Below, one piece after another: positions 51,560-55,385 of a stretch of DNA of 64,000 bases; position 1 is the first letter of the stretch, and each line of letters begins with the position of its first letter. Position numbers and translations under genes: made by a program. The stretch is from contig JAPPBX010000080.1 in assembly GCA_026702755.1 (NCBI GenBank), positions 26,969 to 90,968 on the forward strand, given 5' to 3'. Under the pieces are notes generated by a model that worked only from the letters and a program-made list of their open reading frames with translations, had not been told where the DNA came from and did not search any database. The DNA comes from Candidatus Poribacteria bacterium (GTDB lineage: Bacteria > Poribacteria > WGA-4E > WGA-3G).

Positions 51560-51607
51560 AAGCAGTCTCCAAGGTGTTGTGTATTAAGTTATGACGGAAT
51601 TATACCA

Positions 51608-51638
51608 CTTTTTGGGGCAGCTTGCAAACCAATATTGA
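51608..51638 (-). repeat. Dispersed palindromic element, copy F (decayed)
   Basis: CTTTTTGGGGCAGCTTGCAA then ACCAATATTGAG follows the element consensus on the left half and degenerates on the right. It lies just upstream of argG, between argG and the promoter at 51659. Confidence 0.5.
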
Positions 51639-51658
51639 GATGTTCAACAACGATGTAT

Positions 51659-51687
51659 TTGATAATTTATCCCGTTTATAGTATAAT
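51659..51687 (+). promoter_or_regulatory. Promoter for the 1007-residue protein gene
   Basis: TTGATA, a 17-base spacer and TATAAT. The predicted start near 51694 gives a leader of about 180 bases. The leader holds a small hairpin with a GCGA tetraloop (AAGGTA/TACCTT, near 51745) and CTCCA/TGGAG just before it. Confidence 0.6.
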
Positions 51688-51874
51688 GGTTCAATGGTGC
51701 GATGGCATCCGCTCCATCTGGAGCAACGAATCTGAGAAGTAGAAGGTAGCGATACCTTTTCCCCCCGATCTCTCAAAACGGCGTTAGGTTTACAATTTTC
51801 ACACGACTCTCTCAAGTCGGTCTTAAGATTCCTGAAAACCCGATCAGATATATTTTCTCTGGGACTTTCTCTAT

Positions 51875-54800
51875 ATGGAATGTGTGAAGGATATTATCCA
51901 ACAGTGCCATGAACGGCGACAGAAGGACATGCAACAGCGGGAGACGATTGTCTCACCCACGTTGCACGGTGAATACCCTTACCACTATATTGTTTATTGT
52001 GCGCATCGGTATCCGTTGCTTTTGCATGACCTTGAACAGGCAGATATTTCGTTTATGCCGATTGGACAAGCACCCTTCGATCGGGGTCCAGCGTATTGTG
52101 GTGGCACGCGTCTCTTAAGACGACAAGGCACACTCAACTGGGAGCCAAGGCGATGGTTCTCGTCCTGGGGGATTCAGGTCTACACAGGAACGCCATCCGC
52201 GCGCGACGGGGCGAACTGGCACGACATCGAGTTCACCTACAGGGCGATCCGCGATGCCCCTGATGCCGTTGTTGCCTGTGTGGACGCACTCGCCAACGCT
52301 GTTATGAACCCGCTACTCACCTTACTCAAAGGTGGAGGCTTGCGGTTTTCGTGTCGAGTGCCAGACTATCTTCACCCGAACACAACAGACGCAAAGCAAT
52401 ATGTTCATAAGCATCTACCCGACATAGACCATCACCGCGATCGTGATATCTACATTGAGATTACTGGCGATAAAGGCTTTACGCGCTGGGATGCTCGCTA
52501 CGAGATTCTTACGGGTAACCTCTTAAACCCGCCTATCATTTCTAAAGACGTGCTTTTCGCGTTTCTCGATGTTTTGCGAGAACTGCTCCATGAACCCGCT
52601 CCGGTATCGGAATTAGACCTGACAGATGCAGCACTCATAGATACACAGGATTTCGACGATTTCGATGTCATAGAATCGTTAGAAACGGAACAAGTTATGA
52701 ATGAAAGTATCCTGGCAGTGCAACGCGGTGAACTTTCTCCGATTAGCATTAAACGACCGAGACCACTCCTCGAAAAAGCAAAACACACTGCAGTGGAGGG
52801 TGAGAGGAATCTCTCTGAATGGGAAGCCCACATTCTTGGGATTACCACAGGTTCAATGAGCACTGAAAAGAGACGTGAAATCGAAGCTACATTTCTTGAT
52901 ACCGCCCCTATATGGATCAACGCTAATACCGCACACGATGCCGAAGAAGCAGAGCGGTATTATGAAGGGCAGGGCGTTTCAGTCGGACGTTGGAAACCAC
53001 GAAACTATCGCTGGGAACAGGTAAAGCGGATACCCATTGTTGAAAGGATGCAGAATCCTTTCGCGCCGGGAAACGCCTGCGAAGATGCCGAAAGATGCAA
53101 CGCCTTAGAGCAGAAAGGCGGTGATCCGAATAAGAGTATCTGTCCGAGTTGTCCGGTTTATGAAGCGTGTCAAGTGCGCGGGTATCTTTCTCAATTTCAG
53201 ACACTCAAGGAGAATCAGGTCATCGTATCCAATATTCGGAACCTCTTTCTGGACCGACGGTATGCGGCGTTTGTTGAGGCGTTGATTGTTCCTGATAGGG
53301 TCTGTATTATAAATGATTCTGAATCCCAGCTCACGAAGCTCTTTACAGAGCATCATCTGTCAAGCGAGATTCTCGAAGGCTGGCTCATTAATTGGAGTGG
53401 TACGGTGTTGGGTCAATTCGCGGAAACAATGCTGAACGCTATTCAAATTACAGACAGTCAGCACGGCGATATTGCGAAGCGAATTCGTACCGTTGTTCAG
53501 GCGTTTGAAGGGTTAGAAGATAACATTATTCAGCAGATGTGTCAGGTAAATTGCCCAGGTAAAGATGGTAGCAGGATTGCAACAGATATTGAGAGTGCAA
53601 TCCAGTTTGGGATTTTGGATATATCAACCTCGGAAAACATAAAGAAGGTACCGAATGTGTATCTCGACTCAGAGTGGACGTTATGGCATCAGTTGAAGAC
53701 ATTCTTTGCGTATTATACGCGCGATATGGATGCTCCGATGTTTGTTGATGACGGGATTCTGCGGTTCTGGTTACCACCGAGAATTCATCAAGAGATTCAG
53801 AAACTTGCGTTCATATCGCCAGCATTCTCGGAAGATTGTTTCAAAGACGTGTTTCCTGAAGAGACCGTATCAGTCAGGCGGGTTGAATCGCAGGAGACAT
53901 CGCTTTCACGGAATAAGTCCTTCCAACTGCGGAGTGCACCGCATATTTCCCATGCAATCGCAAACTACGAGGTTAATTGGGATGTGTTTAGTCTTTCTGA
54001 AATTGCGAACCGCTTTTTTCGCGGTATCTATAGAGAAATGAAGCGACACCCAGATCGCAATCATGTCGTTATCTCAAGCACAAGCACAAGACTGATGTTG
54101 AAAAATGTTTTTGATAAGATTATCAGCTACCACGATCTCATCAAAGACACCCTGGCATCCCCTGAGGATTTGCGATCTACTTTTGAAGCGGCTGACATTT
54201 ACTACGACCGCATCAATGTTCTACGATCCGTCTTTGAGGGTGCTGATGTTGTTTGGATTGTAGGAACACCTTATTTTCCACCGCATTTTATCTGGGAACA
54301 AGCGAAAATACTCTTTGGAAACCAAGTGGAACCGTTAAATTATAATTTGACAATGAACCCTTATCAATTTGAAGATGAACGGATACAAGAACTCTATGAA
54401 CAGAACGCTATCGGTATCCTAACACAGATTGTCTACATCGCAGGATTCAATAAGGCATCAGATAGAACCCTGGTTCTCAACGCGGCTTTACGGGTACCCT
54501 CTGTCACCGATGCTCCAGAGACGGAGTTATTCGATTGGGAAGACTTTGAGATCGCTGGCGGGTTGGATGACCTCTCAGAGACCATTCGGATCCGCGAGGA
54601 TTACGAGGCAGAATACGCGAACATGGATGCTTCATGGACGCGAGAACGTGTTGAATATTTGCTCGGTGTTTCTAAATCGCAAGCGAACCGTATCTTGATG
54701 AGATTGAGGGGCGGTAAACTTGAGCGTGTCCCATTTCATGCTCAGATTTTCGAGCTGCTCTCGGATGGAGAGAAAACAACATCTGAAATCCTTGAATCAA

Positions 54801-54898
54801 TTCAGGGGAATCCAGGCTCCATTAAAAACGAACTCACCCATCTTGTAGAAACGGGTGATATTGTGAGGGTCCGGCGGGGTGTTTACGCACTGGCATAG
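51875..54898 (+). CDS. Large protein with Cys cluster, degenerate XPD/DinG-type helicase core and winged-helix tail
   Basis: I do not recognise a named family for this 1007-residue protein. Residues 1-250 are a domain with motifs such as SSWGIQVYTGTPSARDG and DIYIEITGDKGFTRWDARYE. Five Cys lie at 402, 408, 423, 426 and 432 (SICPSCPVYEACQ), like the Fe-S or zinc insert of XPD/DinG helicases, followed by NQVIVSNIRNLFLD and CIINDSES, which sits where DinG has IIDEAH. Near 790 ADVVWIVGTPYFPP resembles their late motifs. No Walker A is seen, so it is probably not an active ATPase. The last 85 residues form a winged helix ending VRVRRGVYAL, as in some antitoxins. It has its own promoter and no neighbours in operon. 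Confidence 0.8.
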   Translation: MECVKDIIQQCHERRQKDMQQRETIVSPTLHGEYPYHYIVYCAHRYPLLLHDLEQADISFMPIGQAPFDRGPAYCGGTRLLRRQGTLNWEPRRWFSSWGIQVYTGTPSARDGANWHDIEFTYRAIRDAPDAVVACVDALANAVMNPLLTLLKGGGLRFSCRVPDYLHPNTTDAKQYVHKHLPDIDHHRDRDIYIEITGDKGFTRWDARYEILTGNLLNPPIISKDVLFAFLDVLRELLHEPAPVSELDLTDAALIDTQDFDDFDVIESLETEQVMNESILAVQRGELSPISIKRPRPLLEKAKHTAVEGERNLSEWEAHILGITTGSMSTEKRREIEATFLDTAPIWINANTAHDAEEAERYYEGQGVSVGRWKPRNYRWEQVKRIPIVERMQNPFAPGNACEDAERCNALEQKGGDPNKSICPSCPVYEACQVRGYLSQFQTLKENQVIVSNIRNLFLDRRYAAFVEALIVPDRVCIINDSESQLTKLFTEHHLSSEILEGWLINWSGTVLGQFAETMLNAIQITDSQHGDIAKRIRTVVQAFEGLEDNIIQQMCQVNCPGKDGSRIATDIESAIQFGILDISTSENIKKVPNVYLDSEWTLWHQLKTFFAYYTRDMDAPMFVDDGILRFWLPPRIHQEIQKLAFISPAFSEDCFKDVFPEETVSVRRVESQETSLSRNKSFQLRSAPHISHAIANYEVNWDVFSLSEIANRFFRGIYREMKRHPDRNHVVISSTSTRLMLKNVFDKIISYHDLIKDTLASPEDLRSTFEAADIYYDRINVLRSVFEGADVVWIVGTPYFPPHFIWEQAKILFGNQVEPLNYNLTMNPYQFEDERIQELYEQNAIGILTQIVYIAGFNKASDRTLVLNAALRVPSVTDAPETELFDWEDFEIAGGLDDLSETIRIREDYEAEYANMDASWTRERVEYLLGVSKSQANRILMRLRGGKLERVPFHAQIFELLSDGEKTTSEILESIQGNPGSIKNELTHLVETGDIVRVRRGVYALA

Positions 54899-54960
54899 GC
54901 AGTTATCTACCTTTCAAAACGCTTTTTTTGCAAAAAAATTTATCAAAATACACTTTTTTT

Positions 54961-54980
54961 ATACAAAAATTGTATTTTTT
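54961..54980 (+). terminator. Weak AT-rich terminator-like hairpin after the 1007-residue gene
   Basis: ATACAA and TTGTAT pair around AAA, followed by six T. The stem is short and AT-only, so termination would be weak. It could alternatively be an operator for the promoter at 54982, which starts two bases later. Confidence 0.35.
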
Positions 54981-54981
54981 C

Positions 54982-55010
54982 TTGCAAAACAGAATTAATT
55001 TGTGTATAAT
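54982..55010 (+). promoter_or_regulatory. Strong promoter with no gene behind it
   Basis: TTGCAA, a 17-base spacer and TATAAT. Transcription would begin near 55017, ahead of the direct repeats. The nearest plausible coding start is at 55455, which has its own promoter, so this one may make a noncoding RNA. Confidence 0.55.
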
Positions 55011-55053
55011 TTATTTAGTATGACTAAAAATCTGCTCCTATTAATAAGCCATT

Positions 55054-55135
55054 ATGATTTAAGTCATACAGAATTCAAACTGAAATCCATTCATACATCA
55101 TACATAACCATGATTTCAGTTATACAGAATTCAAA
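55054..55135 (+). repeat. Two 26-bp direct repeats, period 56
   Basis: Units 55054-55079 and 55110-55135 differ at two of 26 positions and share ATACAGAATTCAAA in full. Each begins with a near-palindrome (ATGATTTAAGTCAT in the first). They may be tandem binding sites or parts of a structured RNA. Confidence 0.7.
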
Positions 55136-55385
55136 AGGAGATTTGGTAGAGCGCAGAGAGGAAAATTCCAGAAGCGCATCCTCTCTGTTGCTCGCCAACT
55201 CCCTTTTCAAACCACTCCAATGAACATACCCCTGCACGCCCGACAGATAGGAATATTTATTATACTAAACTAAAGTTTGGATAATATATTTACACACCCA
55301 TCGGTTTGACAGATACTCACAACTAAGTTATAATTTTAAACATAATCCCATTTCTGAATAATGACTTCTCATTAACAAAAAATTC

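Follow-up and report, generated by a model that had tools for sequence, protein, structure and literature searches.

A putative prim-pol/helicase pseudoenzyme kept by selection in Poribacteria

What is a thousand-residue protein that resembles a helicase stripped of its ATPase, and what could keep it in a bacterial chromosome? We analyzed a window of 64,000 nucleotides from Candidatus Poribacteria bacterium (GenBank assembly GCA_026702755.1, contig JAPPBX010000080.1, positions 26,969 to 90,968 of the forward strand), in which the frame at 51875..54898 on the plus strand encodes such a protein, here called P0001; coordinates are those of the window, and the segments of P0001 given below lie on the same strand. 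The frame translates into 1007 amino acids without a stop. A first-pass annotation, made from the letters alone, had read the product as a DNA-binding relative of the XPD/DinG helicases, and the motifs that it quoted are all present: IVSNIRNLF, IINDSES (residues 478-484), VGTPYFPP (about 796-803) and, at the C terminus, VRVRRGVYAL. Homology searches returned 713 homologues at E ≤ 0.001, the best 120 of which were listed; given these, the orthologues across the genus and a ratio of nonsynonymous to synonymous changes (dN/dS) of 0.17, P0001 is no chance reading frame. We describe it as a fusion of a pseudo primase-polymerase (prim-pol) and a pseudo-helicase, in which the helicase is almost surely dead and the primase probably so.

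The helicase part and its likely parents

Structure prediction, one of the checks proposed with the earlier reading, gave an XPD/DinG-type helicase fold over residues 306-903 (52790..54583). As in the iron-sulfur (Fe-S) helicases of this kind in superfamily 2, a cysteine cluster follows the Walker A position and precedes that of Walker B; its five members, at 402, 408, 423, 426 and 432 (53078..53170), are those already noticed. The cluster is conserved in 76/76 orthologues, with C402, C423, C426 and C432 each present in all of them, and is predicted to form an Fe-S or zinc site. Unlike the XPD/DinG helicases, P0001 carries a fused prim-pol domain, and Walker A, DExH and the motif VI arginines are gone in 76/76 orthologues. 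The site aligned with Walker A reads GITTGSMSTEK (residues 322-332; 52838..52870), in agreement with the claim that no Walker A is there; the Walker B (DExx) remnant is CIINDSES (residues 477-484; 53303..53326), and the motif VI remnant QIVYIAG (residues 851-857; 54425..54445) has lost both arginines.

Whether homologues keep the motor was another of the checks proposed, and we counted motifs in proteins of at least 850 amino acids after removing near-identical cores (420 reduced to 387), so that shorter paralogues without the middle part were excluded. GK[ST], which holds the Walker A lysine, and the DE of DExH were both found in 0/76 orthologues, and these losses are thus fixed. GK[ST] was kept in 78/92 proteins like L123, in 30/43 like L128 (both introduced below) and in 42/169 other family paralogues, a set that includes L143 even though this protein shares 30% identity with P0001 and with L128 alike. 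The motif VI arginines (pattern QxxxRx(1-2)R) were found in 0/76 orthologues, 92/92 L123-like and 40/43 L128-like proteins. The plain DE count is too high, as it included an upstream DE in 6/7 members of a group at 60% identity; a stricter pattern gave 0/7 in that group, 0/76 in the orthologues and 46/169 in the rest, and itself misses real motifs (21/43 for the L128-like proteins). Walker A changed six times within the family on a FastTree tree that carried long-branch warnings and was used only for this count and for grouping the orthologues. The predicted fold, the motif counts and the relatives with intact motors bear out that P0001 descends from a helicase of the XPD/DinG type and has lost its ATPase, and we regard the helicase as almost certainly inactive.

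A picture of the parent comes from L123, found by a profile search of related genomes. Its open frame spans 991 codons, or 918 if counted from its first ATG, and begins with a BT4734-type AEP primase domain (PF08800, E 6.5e-24); the cysteines are spaced as in P0001, Walker A is intact and a DExx motif is present. In hhalign comparisons, its helicase part matched the family of the window with probability 98.7 as a single sequence and 100 (E 4.4e-56) as a family. The helicase parts of P0001 and of these BT4734-like_N primase-helicases are thus homologous, whereas the N-terminal domains are distantly related; P0001 itself has no Pfam match to PF08800 at E ≤ 10. A search with L123 recovered L127, L128 and L129, all with intact motors; L127 and L128 have the N-terminal domain of the P0001 type, and the frame of L129 begins inside that domain. 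A bridge is provided by L143:319-3465, which keeps an L128-type prim-pol motif I and the two motif VI arginines, with Walker A already changed to GKN.

Rep_3 initiators lie near L123 and L129, ParA near L123, and tyrosine integrases and methylases near both L123 and L128, while the contig of L127 is too short to show neighbors. Because of these replicon-type neighbors, the parents of P0001 resemble proteins that replicate plasmids or integrated elements. An integrated plasmid-like region, L125 (G069:C61:8000-27900), has a Rep_3 initiator, ParA, a tyrosine integrase and a DNA methylase and also encodes an intact AEP/XPD-like primase-helicase. Two further proteins, P0236 and P0254, join an L128-like helicase to a PF08800 N-terminal domain, which suggests that prim-pol domains have been swapped between related replication proteins.

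The N-terminal domain and the known systems

The N-terminal 250 residues had been thought to match nothing, but residues 1-248 (51875..52618) are predicted to adopt an AEP prim-pol fold. The assignment is carried by the fold result and by the bridge through L128. With L127, L128, L143 and two other rows removed, the profile of the domain still reached the L128 type with probability 100 and the AEPs with 89.4 (95.8 with those rows), while the link to the Prim-Pol PF09250 type fell from 4.4 to 0.8.

Prim-pol motif I falls at W115-T121 (52217..52237): in the L128-like proteins, the residues aligned with the Prim-Pol DxD are acidic at position 119 in 40/41 and at 121 in 41/41 (E in all), whereas position 121 is acidic in 0/76 orthologues of P0001. 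Motif II falls at K152-R161 (52328..52357), where GGLR replaces GGxH; the histidine of sxH has become R157, and position 153 is serine in 6/76 orthologues. For motif III the candidate is E195, followed by a conserved W205-D206-x-R208-Y209 (52451..52504); at position 195, which comes from a weak alignment, the 76 orthologues have E in 31, D in 7, R in 16, K in 13 and other residues in 9.

The architecture has known parallels. Like pRN1 ORF904 and other AEP prim-pol/helicase proteins, P0001 places a prim-pol fold before a helicase; the helicase of ORF904 belongs to superfamily 3 (PMC8718748), whereas that of P0001 is XPD-like with its catalytic residues lost. AEPs on mobile and integrated elements have been described as fused to diverse helicases, including those of superfamily 2, and to winged-helix domains thought to read origins (PMC5862659), and a PrimPol of Thermus has a part in defending against DNA that invades the cell (PMC8718748). 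Among the DinG-like proteins, the nuclease part of the pExoDinG group is thought to be inactive, and the word primase does not occur in the main text of a 2025 review of them (PMC11981726). We met no description of a prim-pol joined to an XPD/DinG-like helicase in the literature searched, most subscription journals lying outside it, and found no paper on the P0001 family there (including Poribacteria helicases and primases, by title, and TOTE), which is not proof of absence.

Database searches with P0001 returned little: a weak C-terminal winged helix and nothing else in Pfam, no match in NCBIfam, weak AbiEi and weak Cas7_IIIg matches in PADLOC, one weak match in PHROGs, chance-level matches by sequence in the Protein Data Bank and three unnamed matches at E ≤ 0.001 in a fold search of BFVD. 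Scans of viral contigs found no relative; among plasmid and phage sequences, nothing matched L128, and the matches to L123 covered its N-terminal AEP part only.

Selection and the argG chromosomal site

P0001 is under purifying selection. Over 15 orthologue rows the median dN/dS was 0.174; constraint was tightest on the C-terminal helix-turn-helix (HTH) part, at 0.129, followed by the Cys loop with 0.136 and the N-terminal domain with 0.137, and loosest on the linker (0.30) and the surroundings of Walker A (0.259). All 15 rows have an open frame; one of them, near a contig end, lacks about 71 N-terminal residues.

As had been noted, the gene stands alone between long flanks: argG starts 315 bp upstream on the opposite strand, divergently, and the next gene downstream, for a beta-propeller protein, starts 556 bp past its end. 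The nearest genes are those for argG, a MoxR-type protein, the beta-propeller protein and a lipoate-ligase-type protein, and no integrase, initiator or partition gene is among them. As to the claim of an own promoter, a promoter-like TTGATA-17-TATAAT sequence (11/12 matches to the consensus) is present at 51659..51687; the scan that would back it is weak evidence, as such scans are, since it counted 15 promoter-like sites across the region where shuffled sequence gave 7.7 on average. Downstream of the gene, at 55054-55142, there are two 33-nt direct repeats, 85% alike, with 56 nt between.

The distribution is patchy. An orthologue of at least 75% identity occurs in 15/38 genomes of the genus, with one more at 62%. 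Across the phylum, 49/84 genomes in 2/21 genera have a match to P0001, one of them (G069) holding only an L123-type relative; a profile search extended this to 50/84 genomes and three genera, the extra genus matching in the winged HTH only. The 80 relatives listed, out of 148 from the named collection, are all Poribacteria. Their neighbors, which the earlier reading had proposed to compare, were examined at 11 of the 80 loci, and argG precedes the orthologue in 9/11; of the other two loci, one has no upstream sequence and one (60% identity) is located elsewhere.

The loci of the flanking genes were read in 30 of the 37 genomes with a match. The orthologue lies within about 1.5 kb of argG in 11 of the 30 and on another contig in one more; the beta-propeller gene is found within that distance instead in 7, and neither within the available stretch in 11. 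In seven relatives without P0001, a segment of about 3.7 kb (51645..55375 of the window) is absent or replaced: homology is lost at 51584-51644 and picks up again at 55376-55379. Some of these loci have other short genes, and one has just about 155 bp between argG and the beta-propeller gene. Across the genus, this gap behaves as a variable cargo site with various kinds of short genes, other inserts or almost nothing (L160, L169, L171, L176, L184, L185, L187).

On a tree of argG and the MoxR-type gene, the presence pattern (12/30) needs 8 changes, against a mean of 9.6 for shuffled labels, 99 to 102 of 500 of which did as well as the observed. Among the 12 carriers, mean synonymous divergence (pS) was 0.373 in the P0001 gene versus 0.522 and 0.555 in the flanking genes, while nonsynonymous divergence (pN) was 0.087 versus 0.030 and 0.024; distances in the P0001 gene tracked those in the flanking genes with r 0.49 (Mantel p 0.006), compared with 0.86 between one flanking gene and the other. 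These patterns fit an accessory gene that evolves fast and is exchanged locally time and again, with a possible contribution from losses and codon bias, and the P0001 gene has apparently been exchanged horizontally between chromosomes at this one site. Five inverted-repeat pairs were found, none with its arms at the two edges of the segment, and we therefore do not call it a transposon.

The wider family is numerous, with 12, 12, 16 and 13 profile matches in four single-contig genomes and 4 in another. Paralogues form tandem arrays in L013 (G000:C108), G083:C1:461288-471119, G082:C1:1999196-2003975 and G079:C1:911658-919045. Versions of about 796 amino acids without the middle part (residues ~306-600) occur in G083, G055 and G056, a paralogue in the genome of P0001 itself (L011:6415-9366) has its whole Cys cluster deleted and its frame intact, and some paralogues carry stop codons.

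What the protein may do

Our best explanation of the whole, which we put forward tentatively, is that P0001 is a twice-inactive prim-pol/XPD-like protein that acts as a DNA-binding block on related mobile elements. Its parent would have been a plasmid-type replication protein in which a prim-pol primase was joined to an XPD-like Fe-S helicase. P0001 would keep the DNA-handling shell (the prim-pol scaffold, the Cys cluster and the C-terminal HTH and winged HTH) and, without a motor, could bind DNA but not move along it. It may then occupy origin-like or forked DNA of related elements and block or repress them, by dominant-negative interference or by repression. On this view DNA binding would have been retained, and related replicons would be its target. 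A more specific version is doubtful: bacteria would have redirected the replication machinery of a plasmid against its own relatives, as a decoy initiator retained whole with both active sites dead, which seizes origins or forks of related elements. It would have spread horizontally by way of a single chromosomal site, accompanied by up to about 12 paralogues per genome in progressive loss of the motor. The first-pass annotation was right about the degenerate XPD/DinG origin and missed the primase-helicase parent and the eroded primase site; the choice that it left between a regulator, a replication factor and a defence factor can be narrowed but not settled.

The C-terminal end also allows another function. 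Residues 923-944 (54641..54706) form an HTH segment, judged by secondary structure and by alignment to the HTH end of L123, and residues 954-1006 (54734..54892) an AbiEi_4-like winged HTH, which supports the winged helix noticed earlier and is predicted to contact DNA. The AbiEi_4 match, at residues 987-1007, scores 21.6 bits against a Pfam cut-off of 25, and hhalign relates the C-terminal part to the L123 family with a probability of only 34.8. P0001 could be a transcription regulator or nucleoid-type protein serving the host, in which the old fold is no more than a scaffold for binding DNA and the AbiEi-like winged HTH reads particular promoters unrelated to mobile elements. This is in keeping with the HTH region being the most constrained part and with the antitoxin-type likeness, weak as it is; the patchy presence and the low synonymous and high nonsynonymous divergence relative to the flanks fit an accessory gene better, and a scaffold of a thousand residues that retains its Cys cluster seems large for a repressor. 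We consider such a regulator somewhat unlikely.

A live prim-pol, with the dead XPD-like part serving only as a DNA clamp, for example in repriming, is the next alternative, and the evidence for it is also what weighs against a dead primase. The orthologues keep D117 in 76/76 and E119 in 74/76, which could form a shifted motif I, and hhalign with the profile of the window family aligns these two residues, weakly, with the PrimPol DxD. Counted as the metal-binding acids of motif I (hhhDhD/E), the L128-like register is filled in 0/76 orthologues and the alternative register in 74/76. R157, R161, H167, D206 and R208 are each kept in 76/76, and the DR0530-like family has Arg or Lys at the motif II histidine position (PMC5862659). 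On the other side, position 117 is serine in 9/41 L128-like proteins, the glutamate at 121 that all of these have is missing from every orthologue, the motif III candidate is E or D in 38/76 and R or K in 29/76, and Ser153 of motif II is nearly gone. We judge the primase to be probably dead and a live one improbable.

It is comparably improbable that P0001 is a selfish replication gene in decay that has no function for the host and whose copies spread with elements, die and linger. The many paralogues at varied stages of motif loss, the tandem copies and the stop codons would suit this; the frames of the P0001 clade, open throughout and under purifying selection that is strongest in the HTH, Cys loop and N-terminal domain, and the fixation of the motif losses argue otherwise. 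Three simpler candidates were rejected: a pseudogene by the dN/dS evidence, a lone degenerate helicase by the predicted prim-pol fold, and an AbiE antitoxin by the subthreshold winged-HTH match and by the neighbors, argG and the beta-propeller gene, which leave no AbiEii toxin adjacent.

P0001 clearly illustrates how a replication protein made of two enzymes can lose its motor, and probably its primase, and nevertheless be kept by selection. Its paralogues, standing at many intermediate stages, offer a natural series from an enzyme to a DNA-binding pseudoenzyme. If P0001 does block replicons related to it, bacteria would here have made a kind of immunity out of a replication protein taken from the invader itself.
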